37,338 bases of DNA from an uncultured Pseudomonadota bacterium (lineage in GTDB: Bacteria > Pseudomonadota > Gammaproteobacteria > Burkholderiales > Thiobacillaceae). The stretch covers positions 1 to 37,338 of the forward strand of contig CAILNT010000115.1 of the NCBI GenBank assembly GCA_903835655.1, given 5' to 3'. Position numbers and translations under genes: made by a program. How positions within the stretch are numbered: the first letter of the stretch is position 1; each line of letters begins with the position of its first letter. Below are positions 323 through 8,300 of this stretch, piece after piece. Under the pieces are notes generated by a model, which saw only the letters and a list, made by a program, of their open reading frames with translations, searched no databases and was not told the origin of the DNA.

Positions 323-343
323 TGTAGTAGGCGTCGGAAATGA

Positions 344-369
344 AACCGCCCCGGCAAGCCGGGGCGGTT
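344..369 (-). terminator. Perfect GC-rich hairpin between the 45-aa gene and cobS
   Basis: An 11-bp perfect inverted repeat (aaccgccccgg with ccggggcggtt, loop of four) lies 18 nt after the stop codon of the small gene at 388-525. Read on the minus strand it is followed by tcattt, a short and imperfect U tract. It is probably an intrinsic terminator or an RNA-stabilising hairpin that isolates the small gene from the downstream cobS-like gene. Confidence 0.6.
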
Positions 370-387
370 CATTGAACGCAGTGAAGG

Positions 388-525
388 TTAGGAATGAACG
401 GACGAACCGTCATTAGCGACGTTCGGATTGTTTTGTGTTTCACCCATCATCAGTGTGGTCAGGGTCGGGGCGGCATAGGGCTGCTTGATCTCGGTGACTT
501 CTTCGTTCATTTCGACGGTCTGCAT
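388..525 (-). CDS. Putative lasso-peptide (RiPP) precursor, 45 aa
   Basis: This short gene has a good ribosome site (aggag, five bases before the ATG) and ends in TAA just before a strong hairpin. The protein is acidic at its N-terminus, and its leader includes Y17-A-A-P20-T-L22-T-T-L25, then T30-Q31. That spacing fits lasso-peptide leaders, where Y-x2-P-x-L is bound by the PqqD-like recognition protein and a Thr sits at position -2. Cleavage after Q31 would leave the core NNPNVANDGSSVHS. Its Asp is at core position 8, a legal ring-closing position giving an eight-residue ring, a GSSVHS tail and a C-terminal Ser. Core residue 1 would be Asn, which is less usual than Gly, Ala, Ser or Cys. An HPr-kinase-like gene and a sulfotransferase lie on the same strand at 2014-3786. 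No cyclase or leader peptidase is visible. The gene call is fairly secure; the lasso assignment is inference from motif spacing and neighbours. Confidence 0.6.
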   Translation of the reverse strand: MQTVEMNEEVTEIKQPYAAPTLTTLMMGETQNNPNVANDGSSVHS

Positions 526-850
526 GGGTACTCCTGGAGGACTGGCGTAGCGGTGGCCATCCTAACCCAGTTCTCGGGAAATGTGTGTGAGGGTGGACAA
601 GCTTTGTGTCTGGGAAATGGATAGTTTGCGACTTTCATCACACTCGGATCGATGCCATGGATAGCGCATTGGAAGTGCCGATTGCGAGCCACAAGGTGGG
701 AAAGGGTATGGTGCGGTGGCTGCGGAAACGTTGCAAACGCTGCCGAATGGCCACTGGCAGTGGTCGCCCGAGCCCGCTGCAATCTCGGTGTAGATCCGCG
801 TGTCGCACGACGCCAGCCGGCATTGCCGCCCCCTACCCCCGAGTGTGTCC
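526..850. other. Intergenic tract upstream of the small gene; no gene recognised
   Basis: Several reading frames cross this stretch, but none has a recognisable product or a convincing start site. It must hold the promoter of the 45-aa gene unless that gene is read through from far upstream. I found no clear -35/-10 pair on the minus strand. Confidence 0.4.
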
Positions 851-962
851 AAATCCCCCTAACCCCCCTTTTTCAAACGGGGTGTGTTCCTCCCACTTCC
901 GCAAAGGGGTACCGAGAGGAGTTTTTCTTCCCCCTTTGAAAAGGGGGGAGCGAGGGGGATTT
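851..962. repeat. C/G-rich palindromic repeat block 1 (MITE-like)
   Basis: The block opens with aaatccccctaacccccc and closes with gagggggattt, so its ends are inverted copies of each other. Inside, the right half has the unit ccccctttgaaaaggggg, itself nearly palindromic, and the left half has the reverse orientation (cccctttttcaaacgggg). The same unit makes up the tandem array at 1385-1641 and a lone copy near 16391. Terminal inverted ends and dispersed copies suggest a small non-autonomous element or a REP-like family. Its right end runs into an unrecognised reading frame. Confidence 0.75.
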
Positions 963-1360
963 CCTATCTCAACAGCCTGGATGCCGCGCGCGCGGCGTTT
1001 CGCCAGGCGGTGGATGCGGACTCGAAACTCGGTCCCCAGGTGAGTGTCGCCATCAAGCGCGGTTGCACGCATTACGAACTGAAATGCGGCCCTTCCGACC
1101 AGTATCGATTTCTGCCGGAACAGGCGGGGATCGAAGCCGCGCTGCGGTCACGCATCGAACCCGCGCCCAAACTTCCCTCTCCCTCGCAGTCGGCGCAGAA
1201 GATGCAGACCTTCTTACTCTGGATCGAAACGGCCTACCGCCTGGGCGACGAGACCTATCGCGACTTTACCGGCGGTAAACGACTCTTTTCCGAGACCGTA
1301 AAATACGATCCGGAAGGCCAGGACGCCCCTGCCTGCGCCAATGGCTGGGCGAGAAGCTAA
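884..1360 (+). pseudogene. Unrecognised reading frame whose 5' end is repeat sequence
   Basis: From about 966 to the TAA at 1358-1360 the frame looks coding, with GC-rich third positions and balanced composition. It includes LDAARAAFRQAVDADSKLG, GCTHYELKCGPSDQYRFLP and FLLWIETAYRLGDETYRDF. I do not recognise the family. The first 25 or so codons, from a GTG at 884, are translated repeat (SSPFEKGGARGIS), so the natural N-terminus seems to have been replaced by the repeat block at 851-962. No ribosome site supports the GTG. The most economical reading is a 3' gene remnant of about 130 codons truncated by repeat insertion. A short genuine gene starting inside the repeat cannot be excluded. Confidence 0.35.
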
Positions 1361-1451: not shown

Positions 1452-1641
1452 CCTTCCCCCTTTGAAAAGGGAGACCCGAGGGGATGCACCTTCCCCCTTT
1501 GAAAAGGGAGACCCGAGGGGATACACCTTCTCCCTTTGAAAAAGGGGGATCGAGGGGGATTTCGCCTTCCCCTCTCCCTGTAGTATCCGAGGGGGCTTAC
1601 TCCTTCCCCCTTTGAAAAAGGGGGATCGAGGGGGATTTCCG
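1452..1641. repeat. Tandem array of five units of about 37-40 bp
   Basis: Five consecutive units each start with ccttc and end in a G-run: 1452-1488, 1489-1525, 1526-1564, 1565-1601 and 1602-1641. Four carry the near-palindrome cccctttgaaaagggg or a close variant. The 1565 unit is diverged (cccctctccctgtagtatcc). Units 1 and 2 are almost identical, which suggests recent duplication. The last unit encodes the C-terminus (IPLFQRGKE) and stop codon of the DUF559 gene. The right edge, gagggggattt, mirrors the left edge near 1412 (aaatccccccaacccccc), so the whole 1385-1641 block is bounded by inverted ends. Confidence 0.8.
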
Positions 1642-1992
1642 CCTTTCCACGACACTCGCTATCGCTTCAACGACCGCGTCGATCTCCCGCAGGACCTGGA
1701 GATTGTCGAAACGCATGACCATCAACCCAAGTGATTCCAGTTTCTGCGTTCTGGATTGGTCCGCCTGTTGCCCAGCTTCTTCAAAATGCTGGGAACCATC
1801 CACCTCGATCACCAGATTGGCCGCGGCGCAGTAGAAATCAACGATGAAATCCGCCAGGGGTTTTTGACGATAGAACCTCACCCCGAGAATCTGCCCGCGG
1901 CGCAGCCTCGACCACAGCACCCTCTCCGCGTCCGTCATGTCCCGACGCAGGTTGCGGGAAAGGGTTTTGAGTTTCTTTTCGTAGTCAAGCAT
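1597..1992 (-). CDS. DUF559 family endonuclease-like protein (Vsr/PD-(D/E)XK fold)
   Basis: The 131-aa product begins MLDYEKKLKTLSRNLRRDMT and has the DUF559 layout: an acidic residue at E23 (TDAERVLW), D52 (DFIVDFYC) and E63-V-D65-G (LVIEVDGSQHF), matching the PD-(D/E)XK-type catalytic core. A C-terminal helix (RFDNLQVLREIDAVVEAI) follows. The family is small and usually stands alone; its biological role is not established, though its fold is related to very-short-patch repair endonucleases. A G-rich site (agggggaa) precedes the ATG. The last dozen residues (SPSIPLFQRGKE) are encoded by the adjacent repeat array, so the stop codon lies inside the repeat. It starts about 20 bp after the sulfotransferase stop, on the same strand, and probably belongs with the repeats and not with the peptide genes. 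Confidence 0.8.
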   Translation of the reverse strand: MLDYEKKLKTLSRNLRRDMTDAERVLWSRLRRGQILGVRFYRQKPLADFIVDFYCAAANLVIEVDGSQHFEEAGQQADQSRTQKLESLGLMVMRFDNLQVLREIDAVVEAIASVVERRKSPSIPLFQRGKE

Positions 1993-2013: not shown

Positions 2014-2865
2014 TCAAGTCCTCTCACTCACCGGATCGCCATTTTCGTCCAGATAGCCGAAACGGCGCATGACTGCGCCATGGTCGGTGACGATGCGATC
2101 CACCTGCTCCTGGGTCAGCTTGTCGCGCCAGGTGCTGCCACCTGCGCGGAAGAAACGCTCGGTATGTTGCGGGCGTTCGCGAAAGCCCTTCTCCGCCTCC
2201 TGCCGTGCGAGTTCGCGAAAGTCGCTGAAACGGATGGCCGTTTCCAGGCGATTCCTGGGGAGCTGGAGAAAGTCCGTGGCCAGGCCGAAAGTGCTCAGAG
2301 GGTCGTGCAGCATGTCTTCGTAGCGGATGACGCGGCAGTTCAGTCCGGGCGCATCGACCCAGCTCAGCACATGCTGCGACCAGGTGAGCAGCCTCTGGCG
2401 CACCTGGCTGGGCAGGCTCTTGCGTGAGCGCGCCAGGGCCATCTCGGGATCGGCCATCTTGGCGATGGCCGCATCGATGGAGCAATGCCAGTGGTTGGCC
2501 GCCGAGGGCGCCACATCCAGCGGATTGCGCAGGATGTAGAGCGCGCCCAGGGGGGCGCTCACCAGGGGCTCATCGTCCGAGGTGAGCGTATAGGCGTCGT
2601 GGATCTTGTGGTAACCGATCTCCCGTTCCCGCAAGGCCCAGCGGTAGACGGCGGGGCGCAGACGCTCGACCTCGTCGGGGGTGAGTTCGGCGGTGTCGAA
2701 GCCCAGCACTTCGTCCAGCCAACCCCGATGGCTGGCGATGCTGCCGGTGGCCAGGTCGTTGATGTCCACGGGTTGATCGCCGTCGTTCTGAAGATTGCGC
2801 AAAAAGGTGCGAAACCAGGTGTTGCCCGACTTCGGGTAGGAGGCGAGCCAGTAGATGCCGGGCAT
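2014..2865 (-). CDS. PAPS-dependent sulfotransferase, probably tailoring a RiPP
   Basis: The 283-aa product has the classical sulfotransferase signatures. The 5'-phosphosulfate loop is at the N-terminus (SYPKSGNTWFRTFL, K12), a K-x-H motif follows (YHKIHDAY, near 85-92), and the 3'-phosphate site is near 110-126 (LYILRNPLDVAPSAANHW). A C-terminal GGSTWRDKL resembles the G-x2-G-x-W cofactor loop. The fold moves sulfate from PAPS to a hydroxyl or amine. It has no signal peptide, so it should be cytoplasmic. It starts three bases after the stop of the HPr-kinase-like gene, implying co-translation. Both gene types occur as tailoring enzymes beside lasso-peptide genes, which together with the 45-aa precursor on the same strand suggests a peptide substrate. 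That substrate is inference; a small-molecule acceptor is possible. Confidence 0.82.
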   Translation of the reverse strand: MPGIYWLASYPKSGNTWFRTFLRNLQNDGDQPVDINDLATGSIASHRGWLDEVLGFDTAELTPDEVERLRPAVYRWALREREIGYHKIHDAYTLTSDDEPLVSAPLGALYILRNPLDVAPSAANHWHCSIDAAIAKMADPEMALARSRKSLPSQVRQRLLTWSQHVLSWVDAPGLNCRVIRYEDMLHDPLSTFGLATDFLQLPRNRLETAIRFSDFRELARQEAEKGFRERPQHTERFFRAGGSTWRDKLTQEQVDRIVTDHGAVMRRFGYLDENGDPVSERT

Positions 2866-2868
2866 GAA

Positions 2869-3786
2869 TCAGGGATGTTCGGCTACGTCGGCCAGGATGC
2901 GGTCGATCAGGGCGTCGAGTTCGAAGCCCTTCTCCGGACGGGTGATGCGGGCCAGGCGTATCCGTCCTGCGAGCTTGCCGCAGAGCTTGAGGTGTTCGGA
3001 CTTCAAGGCCATCCCTTCCAGGTAGCGCACCCGGTAGGTGTTGGCATGCAAGGGCTGGAAGCGCGCCATGCCCCGGATTGGCTCGAACAGGGTCTCGGGC
3101 CGTGCATGGCTGCCGAGGATGTAGACCCAGCGTACCGGTAGCGGCCGGTCGGCGAACTGGTCGAAAAGTGGGTAGTTGAACTTTTCCATCTCCGGACGGA
3201 TGCGGCGCAAGGCTTGCGTGTCGATGTCGAGCCGGTCGGCCGCATCCTGCCACAGCTTGATGCGGGGGAAACCCGGCAGAGCACGACAGTCCGTGGCGAC
3301 CGGCACGACGTCGTCGGCGAGGATCTCGTGGCCGCGCCGCAGGAAGCCGGCCGCGAGCGTGGATTTCCCCGCGCCCGAGTGGCCGACGCAGACCATGCAC
3401 TGCTCGCCGATGCGGATGGCGTTGCCGTGCAGAACCAATAGTCCACGCTGGAACAAGAGCGCTCCCAAGGCCGAGCCCAGAAGGAAGACCCGCAGACTGT
3501 CCGCGTCGATACCAGGCTCGGGGTCGATCACGATCTCCCGGCCTTCGCTGACCAGGAAGCGGGCGACCTTCGGCACCTGTAGCCACAGCGAACTCACGGT
3601 GACCCACAGGAACGGCCCGAGCCGGGTCCCACCGGGGAGACCCTCCGGGGCAACCGGCCCGATCCGGATATCGACCTCGGCCGGGGCGATCTCGGGCACG
3701 GAGGAGACCGCATGGAGCAGTTCGGGGAGGGGGAGCTGGCTCTGTATCGTCAGGCCGTAACAGGTGTAGTGAAATCGATCTGGCAT
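2869..3786 (-). CDS. HPr-kinase/phosphorylase-like protein of RiPP clusters
   Basis: The 305-aa product starts MPDRFHYTCYGLTIQSQLPL, the opening typical of the HprK-like kinases found with lasso peptides and with the so-called HPr-rel-A systems. A conserved LVLHGNA (near 117-123) precedes the P-loop VGHSGAGKST (135-143, K141) and an HprK-like LADDVVPV (156-163). The true HprK N-terminal domain is missing, and a different N-terminal module of about 110 residues takes its place. In paeninodin-type systems such kinases phosphorylate the C-terminal Ser of the precursor; the candidate precursor at 388-525 ends in Ser. The gene is followed almost without gap by the sulfotransferase and begins about 30 bp after nnrD, so it may be read from that promoter. 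No canonical HPr or PTS gene is nearby, which argues against a carbon-catabolite role. Confidence 0.82.
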   Translation of the reverse strand: MPDRFHYTCYGLTIQSQLPLPELLHAVSSVPEIAPAEVDIRIGPVAPEGLPGGTRLGPFLWVTVSSLWLQVPKVARFLVSEGREIVIDPEPGIDADSLRVFLLGSALGALLFQRGLLVLHGNAIRIGEQCMVCVGHSGAGKSTLAAGFLRRGHEILADDVVPVATDCRALPGFPRIKLWQDAADRLDIDTQALRRIRPEMEKFNYPLFDQFADRPLPVRWVYILGSHARPETLFEPIRGMARFQPLHANTYRVRYLEGMALKSEHLKLCGKLAGRIRLARITRPEKGFELDALIDRILADVAEHP

Positions 3787-3817: not shown

Positions 3818-4675
3818 TCAGTATCCTCCTGGCGCTGGTCTCATGGCGGCACTGTTGAGCAGGCGTCTAACCCGCGGCAGCAGTTCCGAGGCGGTCAGGC
3901 CCACCGGCCCCAGGTCTTCCTCCACGGCCAGGTCGGCCGCGGCGCCATGCAGCCAGACTCCGGTCACGGCGGCGGCTTCCGTACCCATGCCCTGGGCGAT
4001 CAGGGCGGCGAGGATGCCGGTCAGCACATCCCCCATGCCCGGGGCCGCCATGCCCGGGTTGCCGCTGTGGTTACGCCAGACTTCGCCTTCCGGGGCCTGC
4101 ACCAGCGTGCCCGAGCCTTTCAGGATCGCCACGGCGCGGAAGTCCGCACAAAGCTGGAACACGCTGCCCAGGCGGTCGCCCTGCACCGCGGCACTGGTCT
4201 TGCCCAACAGGCGGCCGGCCTCGCCGGGGTGAGGCGTGAGCAGGGTGGGGGCGGCGCGGGCACGAACCCGTGCGCGCAGACCCGGGTCGGCCGCGATCAG
4301 GTTGAGCGCATCGGCATCCAGCAACAGCGGCAGTTCCAGCGCCAAGGTCGCCCACAGGACCGCGTGCGCGGCGGCACTTTGCCCCAGACCCGGCCCGGCC
4401 ACCAGACAGGCCGGAGCCGACAGGATCGGTAGCGCCTCCGGGCGGGTGACCATCAGTTCCGGCGCGGCCGGGTCCAGGCCGATGCGTTCGTCCAGCAGAC
4501 CCGCGTAGACGCGCCCTGCGCCGCAGTACAGGGCGGCGCGCGCGGCCAGCAGCGCCGCACCCGCCATGCCTGGCGCGCCGCCGATCACGGCCACGGCGCC
4601 GAAATCGCCCTTGTTGCAGGCGGCGGGGCGTGCCGCGAGGCGGTCCGGCAGGGTATTCGAGCGTATCTCTAGCAT
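3818..4675 (-). CDS. nnrD: ADP-dependent NAD(P)H-hydrate dehydratase
   Basis: The 285-aa protein has the ribokinase-like NnrD pattern. KGDFGAVAVIGGAPGMAGAA lies near the N-terminus, LLTPHPGEAGRLLG is central, AILKGSGTLV follows, and the nucleotide/catalytic segment is NPGMAAPGMGDVLTGILAAL. The enzyme uses ADP or ATP to dehydrate the S-form of damaged, hydrated NADH or NADPH. The epimerase domain often fused at the N-terminus is absent, so any NnrE partner must be encoded elsewhere. The frame is open far upstream, but the ATG at 4673-4675 (MLEIRSNTLP) places the start where the family begins and leaves a 145-bp divergent intergenic region before the response-regulator gene. Confidence 0.9.
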   Translation of the reverse strand: MLEIRSNTLPDRLAARPAACNKGDFGAVAVIGGAPGMAGAALLAARAALYCGAGRVYAGLLDERIGLDPAAPELMVTRPEALPILSAPACLVAGPGLGQSAAAHAVLWATLALELPLLLDADALNLIAADPGLRARVRARAAPTLLTPHPGEAGRLLGKTSAAVQGDRLGSVFQLCADFRAVAILKGSGTLVQAPEGEVWRNHSGNPGMAAPGMGDVLTGILAALIAQGMGTEAAAVTGVWLHGAAADLAVEEDLGPVGLTASELLPRVRRLLNSAAMRPAPGGY

Positions 4676-4820
4676 GGTCGTGTCCCGTTCAAGCGGGTTC
4701 CAACGCGGAGGATGAAGCAGCGCTGGCCGCCGGGCAATATTTGCACAAGGCGAGCGTCGGCGTGGGGGATGGCGGTTACTATTTCCTCCTTCTAGCAGAT
4801 GGCATGCCGGCGGAGCGGGC

Positions 4821-5234
4821 ATGGGTAGAGAGATGAACGATAAAACAACGGCGCAGCGCGTGTTGGTGGTCGATGACGACACGCTCATGCGCGAAGTGCT
4901 CAAGGCGATTTTGCGCAGTGAAGGCTTTATCGTGGCCGGCGAAGCCAAGGATGGCCAGGGGGGACTCACCCTGGTGGAGCGGCTGCGGCCGGATGCCTTG
5001 TGCCTGGACGTCAACATGCCGGGCATCTCCGGCCTGGACACCCTGAAGATCCTGCGCGAAAAATTTCCCGAGGTGCGCGTGGTGATGATCACCGGCGATG
5101 CCAGCATGTCCACGGTGCGTGAGGCGGTGAGTTTCGGCGCGGTGGGTTACATCATCAAACCCTTCAACGCCGGCCGCGTGGCCGATGCCCTGCGTGCCGC
5201 GTTAAGACCGGCGGGCGATTCGCTGTTTTCCTGA
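4821..5234 (+). CDS. Single-domain CheY-like response regulator
   Basis: The 137-aa protein is one receiver domain with no output module. It has the acidic cluster D18-D19-D20 (VLVVDDD), the phospho-acceptor D63 (LCLDVNMPG), T91 (VVMITGD) and K113 (YIIKPF). Such stand-alone receivers pass phosphate or act by protein contact; the cognate kinase is not in the window. The ATG at 4821 is preceded by ggag at good spacing. A second ATG at 4833 (MNDKTT) lacks a properly spaced site. It is divergent from nnrD and about 70 bp upstream of purL, with no functional link to either that I can see. Confidence 0.9.
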   Translation: MGREMNDKTTAQRVLVVDDDTLMREVLKAILRSEGFIVAGEAKDGQGGLTLVERLRPDALCLDVNMPGISGLDTLKILREKFPEVRVVMITGDASMSTVREAVSFGAVGYIIKPFNAGRVADALRAALRPAGDSLFS

Positions 5235-5302
5235 GTACGCCCGACAGGTCGGGGCGCGGTTTCACGTTAAAATCCGCGCTTTCCCGCATCTGAGGCCGCA
5301 AC

Positions 5303-8300
5303 ATGTCCCGCGTCCTGTTCCTCAAGGGCGGTTCCGCCCTCTCCGAGTTCCGCGCAACCAAGCTGCTGCAGGCCCTCGCTCCCCTGGGGGTCGCGCAAGT
5401 GCACGCGGAGCAACGCTATTTCGTCGAACTCGGAAGCGAGCCGAACACGGCCGACTTCGCCTTCCTGTGCGAGTTGCTGGCGGCGCGCGTGCATCAGCCG
5501 GAACAGCCCGCCGTCCTGGTCACTCCACGCCTGGGCACGGTGTCTCCCTGGTCGTCCAAGGCTAGCGACATCGCCGCCAATTGCGGCCTGGGCGCGGTCA
5601 TCCGGATCGAGCATGGCGTGAGCTGGATATTGCTGAACGAGCAGGGCAAGCCGTTGCGGTCCGTGCAGGCCGCACTGCCCCATCTGCACGATCGCATGAC
5701 GGAAAGCGTGTTGCTCGACGAGCGCGACGCGGAACAATTGTTCCACCACGTCGCCCCGCAAGCGCTGCTCACGGTGGATATCCTGAAAGGCGGCAAGCAG
5801 GCCCTGGAAGCGGCCAATGCCGACATGGGGCTGGCGCTGTCGGCGGACGAGGTCGATTACCTGGTCGCCAATTTCAGGAAGGTGAAGCGCAATCCCACCG
5901 ATGTGGAATTGATGATGTTCGCTCAGGCCAATTCCGAGCACTGCCGCCACAAGATATTCAACGCCGAGTGGGTGATCGACGGCGAGAAGCAGGCGGAATC
6001 CCTGTTCGCCATGATCCGCCACACCCACAGCATGCGCCCCGAGGGCACCCTGTCCGCCTACCACGACAATGCCTCGGTGATCAAAGGGGCCACGATCCAG
6101 CGTTTCTACCCGGATGCGAAGCGGCTCTACCGTTCCCATGAGGAACCCACCCACATCCTGATGAAGGTGGAGACCCATAATCACCCGACCGCCATCGCCC
6201 CGTTCGCCGGAGCGGCCACCGGTTCCGGCGGCGAGATCCGCGACGAGGGTGCGGTGGGGCAGGGCTCCAAGCCGAAGGCCGGTCTGTGCGGGTTTACCGT
6301 CTCCAACCTGCGTATACCCGGCTTTGAACAGCCATGGGAGCGCGAGCATGGCAAACCGCTCGGCCGCCCCGGGCGCATCGTCTCGCCCTTGCAGATCATG
6401 ATCGATGCCCCGCTGGGCGCGGCCGCTTTCAACAACGAATTCGGCCGGCCCAATCTCACCGGCTATTTTCGCAGCTTCGAAATGGAGACGCCGGATGGCA
6501 GTGTGCGCGGCTACCACAAGCCGATCATGCTGGCCGGGGGCCTGGGCAACATCCAGGAACGCCATATCGACAAGCACCGCTTCGCCGCCGGCACCCTGCT
6601 GATCCAGTTGGGTGGGCCTGGTCTCCTGATCGGCCTGGGCGGGGGCGCGGCGTCGAGCATGGGTGCCGGGTCGAACACCGAGGGCCTGGACTTCAACTCC
6701 GTGCAGCGCGGCAACCCGGAAATCCAGCGCCGCGCCCAGGAAGTCATCGACCGCTGCTGGCAGATGGGGGCGAAGAACCCCATCCTCTCGGTGCATGACG
6801 TCGGCGCCGGCGGGCTCTCCAATGCCATGCCGGAGCTGGCGCACGGGGCGGGTCTGGGTGCCGTATTCGAACTGCGCGACGTGCCCAGCCTGGAGCCGGG
6901 CATGAGCCCACGGGAAATCTGGTGCAACGAGGCGCAGGAACGCTACGTGCTGGCCATCGCCCCGGAAAACCTGGCCCTGTTCAAAAAACTGTGCGAGCGC
7001 GAACGCTGTCCCTACGCCGTGGCCGGCCACGCCACGGACGACGGCCGCCTGATCGTCGGCGACCGCCATTTCGGCAACAACGCTGTCGACATGGACATGG
7101 AAGTCCTGCTCGGCAAGCCGCCGCGCATGACCCGCGACGTGAAACGCCAGTCGCCCCTGCTCCGGCCCTTCGATGCCGAGGGTTTGAACCTGAAGGAGAT
7201 CGCCTATCGCGTGCTGCGCCACCCCACCGTGGCCAGCAAGTCCTTCCTCATCACGATCGGCGACCGAACCGTGGGCGGTTTTACCGCGCGCGACCAGTGC
7301 GTCGGCCCCTGGCAGATGCCGGTGGCGGATGTCGCGGTCACGACCATGGGCTACGAGGGATATCTGGGCGAGGCGATGGCGCTGGGCGAAAGGCCCCCTC
7401 TCGCCCTGATCGACCCGGCTGCATCGGGGCGCATGGCCGTGGGGGAAGCCATCACCAACCTGGCGGCCGCGGCTATCGGCGACATTTCCGACATCCGGCT
7501 CTCCGCCAACTGGATGGCCGCCGCGGGCCACCCCGGCGAGGATGCCGCCTTGTACGACACGGTGCGCGCAGTGGGACTGGCGCTTTGCCCCTCCTTGAAC
7601 ATCAGTATTCCGGTGGGCAAGGACTCCATGTCCATGGCAACCCGTTGGCAGGACGAGGGCATCGACAAGGCGGTGGTGTCGCCGCTCTCCCTCATCGTCA
7701 CCGCCTTCGCTCCCAGCCCGGATGCGCGCCGCACCCTGACGCCGCAATTGCGCATCGACCAGGGAGAGACAGACCTGATCCTGCTCGACCTCGGTCACGG
7801 CCGTAATCGTCTGGGTGGGTCCATCCTCGCCCAGGTCTGCGGCGAATTGGGCGATACCTGCCCCGATCTCGAGGACGCCACGCGTTTACGGGCCTTCTTC
7901 GCCTTGATCCAGAAACTCAACGGCGAGGGAAAGTTGCTCGCTTACCACGATCGCGGCGATGGCGGCCTGTTTGCCAGCCTCTGTGAGATGGCCTTCGCCG
8001 GTCGCTGCGGCGTCGACCTGGACGTCGACGAACTGCGCTATCACCGCATCCACGACGACATCATGGAAGACGTGGAGGACGCACCCGATCCGCACGAGCC
8101 CTATTCCAGCCGGCTGTTCGGCATTTTGTTCAACGAGGAACTGGGTGCCTTGATTCAGGTGCGCCGCGACGACACCCGTGCCGTCATGGACGCGTGCCTG
8201 GAGGCCGGCATGCGCGATGAGTTCTACATCATCGGCACGACCAACGGCAAAGACCGCGTGCGCATCCTGCGCGAGGGTGTGGCGGTGTTCAACGAATCCC

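Follow-up and report, generated by a model that had tools for sequence, protein, structure and literature searches.

A 45-codon gene in the genome of an uncultured member of the Thiobacillaceae very probably encodes a class II lasso-peptide precursor, which would be phosphorylated at its C-terminus and possibly sulfated by enzymes encoded in the same window, and cleaved and cyclised by enzymes encoded on a second contig of the same genome. The gene itself is real; the reading of its product is based upon the open reading frame, its homologues, the families of the surrounding enzymes and the co-occurrence of their genes, all as observed in sequence. The stretch of DNA that was analysed (the window, 37,338 nucleotides) is the entire contig C115 of a 3.67-Mb genome that is distributed over 132 contigs. 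An earlier note, made from the letters of the window, had proposed that the gene encodes a lasso precursor, and that proposal is upheld by a profile from which the window precursor was withheld, by homologues found at kinase loci, and by B1, B2 and cyclase genes located elsewhere in the genome.

The precursor gene and its surroundings

The open reading frame lies where the earlier note had placed it (positions 388 to 525, 45 codons), and its strand, which that note had left unsaid, is the minus strand, with the ATG at 525 and the stop codon at 388-390; a plus-strand reading of 388-525 was rejected. The translation, MQTVEMNEEVTEIKQPYAAPTLTTLMMGETQNNPNVANDGSSVHS (45 residues), divides into a leader, MQTVEMNEEVTEIKQPYAAPTLTTLMMGETQ, and a predicted core, NNPNVANDGSSVHS. 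The features of the window to which the text refers are the following.

339-373, minus strand: GC-rich, terminator-like hairpin, 3' of the precursor stop codon
388-525, minus strand: lasso precursor gene, 45 residues plus stop (held-out profile match, AGGAG site, homologues at kinase loci)
391-432, minus strand: predicted core NNPNVANDGSSVHS, with Asn1, Asp8 and Ser14 (putative cleavage site)
433-525, minus strand: leader (residues 1-31), carrying Y17-x2-P20-x-L22 and, at position -2, T30 (P20 and T30 unchanged across all 10 aligned rows)
531-535, minus strand: ribosome-binding site AGGAG, 5 bases 5' of the precursor ATG, read directly
840-1640, unstranded: palindromic C/G-rich repeat array, between the precursor and the kinase and sulfotransferase genes
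962-1360, plus strand: open frame flanked by copies of the repeat (Pfam matches no better than E 0.07)
1597-1992, minus strand: DUF559 gene, between the repeats and the sulfotransferase gene
2014-2865, minus strand: PAPS-dependent-type sulfotransferase (Sulfotransfer_1), putative tailoring enzyme (E 7.9e-16)
2869-3786, minus strand: HprK-like kinase, putative C-terminal Ser kinase (matches below the curated cut-offs of HprK models)

The kinase and sulfotransferase genes are located upstream of the precursor gene and on the same strand, while the 5' part of a cobS-like gene is found downstream of it and runs off the contig. A strong ribosome site and a hairpin of its own had both been ascribed to the precursor gene, and both are present: AGGAG precedes the ATG by five bases, and positions 330-390 of the minus strand fold at -32.4 kcal/mol (z -6.9; none of 200 shuffles was as stable), although a consensus scan called neither a terminator nor a sigma-70 promoter at the gene or the hairpin.

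The leader displays the aromatic-x2-P-x-aliphatic motif and the Thr at -2 that are expected of a class II lasso precursor, and the five residues that had been singled out within it (Y17, P20, L22, L25 and T30) are all found. Their spacing had been likened to that of paeninodin-type leaders; the aromatic-to-Thr distance of 13 is at the short end of the range, since that distance is 13 in 4, 14 in 10 and 15 in 8 of 22 tabulated precursors. The Asp at core position 8 and the final Ser had likewise been pointed out correctly: the former falls within the interval (core positions 7-9) at which a lasso core carries Asp or Glu, and the latter supplies the C-terminal Ser of a paeninodin-type precursor. 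The core of 14 residues contains three Ser, no Tyr, no Cys and no aromatic residue except His, and its tail is without an aromatic plug.

The kinase and sulfotransferase genes and their loci in other genomes

The window peptide has no match among Pfam and NCBIfam models at E values up to 1, and a search of 61 genomes (its own included) returned one other match, at E 0.04, that was unconvincing; because the peptide alone matched nothing convincing, the kinase was taken as the anchor for searches. Kinase residues H120, K141, D158 and D159 are invariant in seven of seven aligned kinases and, by a mapping made in this analysis, appear to correspond to the His-Lys-Asp-Asp motif that lasso kinases are described as requiring (PMC9266682). 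As described in the same source and in PMC8498205, the kinases PadeK, ThcoK and SyanK phosphorylate the C-terminal Ser of a linear precursor. The window kinase is 72% identical to a Thiodictyon homologue that is located in a lasso locus, and a search of contigs with it led to eight named loci (Thiodictyon, Sphingorhabdus, Elusimicrobia, Cellvibrionales, two Erythrobacter, the unclassified Pseudomonadota KLAP37, and Coleofasciculus). Its distribution is sparse: a kinase profile matches 13 genomes among 399 of the order and nine among 369 of the class (its own genome being counted in each), and the window kinase is matched in six of 121 near relatives, a count that includes its own genome and three others of the same family but none other of the genus. 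A search of 72,556 plasmid records gave 14 matches, all below 60% identity.

In the sulfotransferase, the sequence YPKSGNTW, the residues K87-x-H89 and the pair R113/S121 are invariant in five of five aligned proteins; we take the first of these to be the PSB (PAPS) loop and the second to be the catalytic K-x-H motif. The best solved relatives of the enzyme are Teg12 and Teg14, sulfotransferases that act on glycopeptides, followed by aryl sulfotransferases.

Within the stretches fetched from 31 other genomes, a sulfotransferase related to that of the window is present in ten, which together with the window gives 11 loci that encode both a kinase and a sulfotransferase. The earlier expectation that homologous small open reading frames would lie beside such gene pairs in related genomes was confirmed at seven of the 11, the window counted among them, and all seven precursors retain the aromatic-x2-P motif, an acidic residue at core position 8 or 9, and Ser as their final residue. 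Their cores are NNPNVANDGSSVHS (window), AGTGSYNDATNYPDPGIS (L010), GMLNPGNDGAGTSTLS (L060), KAKFTTPVEGGPSGHTS (L061), LNKFTSPTEYSVLGSASYGAGS (L088), LSIAGSHGDGALTYPSLS (L089) and TFSIANFEGAFYQTS (L097, for which the split is ambiguous); those of L061 and L088 belong to precursors that are weak by profile (E 2.3). At the remaining four loci (L011, L087, L098 and L101) no convincing precursor was found.

Several other genes of these loci deserve mention. The Thiodictyon lasso locus (L010) encodes, at 3865-5418, an FGE-sulfatase-like protein with a peptidoglycan-binding domain; the cluster of genome G073 (L060) contains a second sulfotransferase, a protein with TPR and Sulfotransfer_3 domains (6527-8056) that adjoins B1; and the sulfotransferase of L087 (1407-2252, minus strand), from a draft genome, is broken by an in-frame stop codon.

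A lasso synthetase encoded on a second contig

Lasso precursors usually, if not absolutely, adjoin their B and C genes. Here the surroundings of the precursor in the window (C115) yielded no such gene, whereas contig C79 of the same genome carries genes for B1, B2 and a lasso-type cyclase, together with those for an ABC transporter and for a nucleotidyltransferase-like protein; B1, transporter and nucleotidyltransferase are encoded between or beside the cyclase and B2 genes. The B2 gene (C79:5040-5375; NF033537, 79.2 bits against a cut-off of 33) is the only one in the genome to match PF13471 above the cut-off, and B1, of the PqqD type, scores 83.1 bits with NF033536 (cut-off 80). The third component, a glutamine-dependent cyclase resembling asparagine synthetase (C79:76-2010), scores above the cut-off for PF00733 (118.3) and below that of the lasso model NF033535 (350.5 bits against 525), so that the genome possesses B1, B2 and an ATP-dependent cyclase, the last of them under its lasso-model cut-off.

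Open reading frame and profile searches revealed no recognisable precursor on C79, and the precursor profile, taken to E 10, has a single match in the whole genome, which is the window gene (itself a member of that profile's training set). When matches in the stretches fetched from the 31 other genomes are ranked by bit score, Thiodictyon supplies the top one for the window kinase and sulfotransferase as well as for B1 and B2 of C79, and the Elusimicrobia supply that for the transporter and the nucleotidyltransferase, the latter being related to a PF14907 protein of the Elusimicrobia locus (L012); the cyclase is closest to that of KLAP37 (52% identity, compared with 34% to that of Thiodictyon). 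Genes of both kinds occur together elsewhere: the Thiodictyon locus unites B1, kinase, sulfotransferase, cyclase and precursor, and in G073, which belongs to the family of the window genome, precursor, kinase, sulfotransferase, B1, cyclase, nucleotidyltransferase, transporter and B2 are all encoded within 18 kb. We infer that the window and C79 serve one pathway.

The repeat array of the window bears upon the relative position of the two contigs. Three mismatch-free copies of the repeat begin in the window at 932, 1532 and 1608, and the fourth and last such copy in the genome occupies bases 1-30 of C79, with the cyclase gene starting 45 bases farther on. This arrangement suggests that the two contigs adjoin, a statement that is kept at that strength because the genome also has 12 looser copies, of which 11 belong to other contigs and one to the window, and two of these copies lie no more than 200 bases into a contig. 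The DUF559 gene was considered as a companion of the repeat and rejected, as no DUF559 relative is found on C79 or in eight stretches around looser copies.

Separation of the B2 gene from the kinase locus is found in five of nine genomes examined (that of the window and four of eight others), and in two of the others (G122 and G127) it is seen within long records. If the 3.56-Mb record of Sphingorhabdus sp. 109 is a circle, its kinase and sulfotransferase genes are located some 109 kb from the B1-B2-C genes; in a linear record the distance would be greater. In Erythrobacter MO_005 the kinase locus and B2 lie in the interior of two contigs, 323 and 476 kb long. Lone B2 genes at L056, L058 and L059 (from Thiodictyon and two Erythrobacter) were not accompanied by any B1 or cyclase relative in the fetched 10-20 kb.

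Such an arrangement might instead reflect a cluster that has been split and has partly decayed, in which the repeats, the DUF559 gene and the unassigned open frame have invaded the interval between precursor and kinase, leaving a dead pathway. The repeat array and DUF559 gene that stand between precursor and sulfotransferase, the location of the synthetase on a separate contig, and the sporadic distribution of the kinase (six of 121 genomes, with none other of the genus) are all as that explanation would predict. Yet the named genes are open and their conserved positions intact, as are the ribosome site and the hairpin of the precursor gene, and separation alone does not amount to decay because the same separation occurs inside the long records of G122 and G127. 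Decay is accordingly judged unlikely, and a functional pathway divided between two loci is preferred. Cluster-based mining can miss precursors of this type, given that B2 is away from the kinase locus in five of nine genomes and that the window precursor has no Pfam or NCBIfam match.

Comparison of precursors

Twenty-two precursors were tabulated and split after T-x. An acidic residue is found at core position 8 or 9 in 20 of them, compared with a mean of 3.9 for shuffled cores (none of 20,000 shuffles reached 20), a figure that is biased upward because ten alignment rows were picked by eye and one search required the acid; the other two are without an acid at positions 7-9. The final residue is Ser in 15, against 3.0 expected by chance, while seven end otherwise. 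The precursor of L104 has Val rather than Thr at -2, and that of L097 is ambiguous in its T-x split, which as chosen places Glu at position 8 and in its alternative places Glu at 10.

Nine candidates were left out of the table: L046, L049 and L053 (all Sphingorhabdus), two each from L095 and L096, L101 and L102. Split after T-x, five of the nine show the acid at position 8 or 9 (L053 and both from L095 and from L096), and the others (L049, L101, L102, and L046, which has Asp at 5, 11 and 12) do not. Matches to the precursor profile with E above 0.7 were also omitted, and those at L094 and at 13703 of L096 were dropped as precursors, both being the ends of cyclase frames.

The three Sphingorhabdus candidates are lasso-like precursors scattered over the chromosome of Sphingorhabdus sp. 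109 (the genome of L011), at least 95 kb from both the B1-B2-C genes and the kinase and sulfotransferase pair; all three end in Ser, and one begins MQTVE, as the window precursor does. At L013 (911-1048, minus strand), a precursor-like peptide with an acid-free core of nine residues, KGMSQVNIS, adjoins kinase, B1 and B2 genes.

The closest counterpart of the window core is NAGGDGADGATQHS, from a precursor of L099 (genome G763), which has nearly the same plan: 14 residues, Asn1, Asp8-Gly9, His13-Ser14, and the same aromatic-to-Thr spacing of 13. That locus differs from the window in that a tandem pair of precursor genes stands between those for a nucleotidyltransferase and a cyclase, and no sulfotransferase was found in the fetched stretch. 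An initial Asn is present in four of the 22 tabulated precursors (those of the window and L016, and both of L099). The suggestion of the earlier note that the gene may represent a new subfamily, made from Asn1 and the plugless tail, is the weaker part of its reading: the argument from Asn1 is weakened by these relatives and by metanodin (PMC12670498).

These comparisons also bear on the possibility that the product is a linear peptide of a non-lasso RiPP family, the tail of which is modified by the kinase and sulfotransferase with no ring being formed, while the lasso genes of C79 serve some other end. The absence of a B or C gene near the precursor in the window would accord with such a product, as would its atypical Asn1 and plugless tail of six residues and the acid-free core of L013, which occurs beside kinase, B1 and B2. 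Arguing against it, however, an acid is conserved at core position 8 or 9 in every one of the seven precursors recognised at sulfotransferase loci, the genome has a lasso synthetase set for which no other precursor was found, and kinase, sulfotransferase and cyclase occur together in Thiodictyon and G073. A linear product is thus quite unlikely, and assignment to the lasso family is favoured.

Precursor profiles

A held-out profile, constructed from nine other precursors with that of the window excluded, was matched against the 658 open reading frames of the window and C79, and recovered the window precursor at E 1.6e-5, with the runner-up at E 0.74. When the profile was restricted to leader columns, the window precursor ranked fifth of 4446 open reading frames (E 0.0033), below four lasso-like precursors from other genomes, one of which (L049) has no acid in the ring range. 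Besides the window, 17 matches in the latter search reach E 1, and an acid is present at projected core positions 7-9 in 11 of these and absent in six, by a projection that is off by one for the window precursor; the leader-only matches do not include the precursors of L061, L062 and L088 or the second one of L099. That the gene is a chance reading frame without a product, as its shortness and its overlap by opposite-strand frames might indicate, is scarcely credible against the held-out match, the presence of a ribosome site, and kinase and sulfotransferase neighbours such as its relatives possess.

Proposed pathway

The precursor is assigned to class II, its core being without Cys. In the pathway that we propose, B1 (of the PqqD/RRE type, from C79) would bind the leader motif YAAPTL, and the HprK-like kinase of the window would phosphorylate Ser14 of the linear precursor before cyclisation. 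B2 (C79) would cleave after Gln31, one residue beyond the conserved Thr30, and the C79 cyclase would form a bond between the Asn1 amino group and the Asp8 side chain, generating a ring of eight residues through which the six-residue tail, GSSVHS, would presumably be threaded. The nucleotidyltransferase of C79 could next add a hexose to the phosphate, as PsmN reportedly does, the window sulfotransferase may add sulfate to a hydroxyl of a tail Ser or to an attached sugar, and the ABC transporter of C79 would export the product. Ser or an attached sugar would be the likeliest site of sulfation because the core lacks Tyr. The end of the tail probably carries a phosphate, and perhaps a sulfate.

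A broader proposal, which we regard as doubtful, is that the loci encoding both kinase and sulfotransferase constitute a branch of the lasso family in which some tails are very short and plugless, and in which a charged cap (phosphate, phospho-hexose or sulfate) upon the conserved terminal Ser takes the place of the bulky plug in holding the tail within the ring; in that case the first sulfated lasso peptides would be products of the sulfotransferase, and a synthetase encoded elsewhere in the genome would act in trans on the precursor.

Comparison with known systems

A 2026 review gives the size of lasso cores as 13-33 residues and mentions phosphorylated paeninodin, and the word sulfotransferase is absent from its available text (PMC13352647); a 2022 review of unusual lasso modifications contains no word starting with 'sulf' (PMC9266682). 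In the available text of the open-licence PMC literature that names both lasso peptides and sulfotransferases no sulfated lasso peptide was seen, nor was any lasso-cluster sulfotransferase with an assigned substrate seen in the available open-licence PMC literature.

The separate features of the window system have already been published. Paeninodin (PadeA/PadeK) and other kinase-bearing clusters, including the proteobacterial SyanA/SyanK, combine an HprK-like kinase with a C-terminal Ser, as the window does (PMC9266682; PMC8498205). The window differs from the paeninodin type in that the synthetase is not adjacent, a sulfotransferase adjoins the kinase, and the 14-residue core begins with Asn and is free of aromatic residues except His. 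Pseudomycoidin (PsmK/PsmN), in which PsmN adds a hexose to the phosphate, shares with the window genome the combination of kinase and nucleotidyltransferase (PMC9266682), whereas the window adds a sulfotransferase and the nucleotidyltransferase is encoded on C79.

The placement of Asn at the first position of a lasso core had been predicted before its first experimental observation, which was made by mass spectrometry in metanodin in 2025 (PMC12670498). Metanodin and the window precursor both have Asn first in the ring and Thr two residues before the core, and both were overlooked by automated annotation; they differ in that metanodin has a ring of nine residues and a tail of ten, and the word kinase does not appear in the available main text of its description (PMC12670498).

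Genes for an HPr kinase homologue and a sulfotransferase had been recognised as part of lasso clusters by 2014 (PMC4289311), and sulfotransferases in clusters of the Firmicutes are credited to Zhu et al. 2016 by a later review (PMC8498205), with the role of the sulfotransferase left undecided in the available text of both sources. The same pair of enzymes is shared by those clusters and the window, where it is found in Proteobacteria. The more useful novelty of the present system is the association of a kinase and sulfotransferase pair with a conserved terminal Ser, together with its separation from the synthetase, and the window locus offers a compact test case, in which a core of 14 residues with three Ser and no Tyr narrows the site at which a sulfate might be placed.
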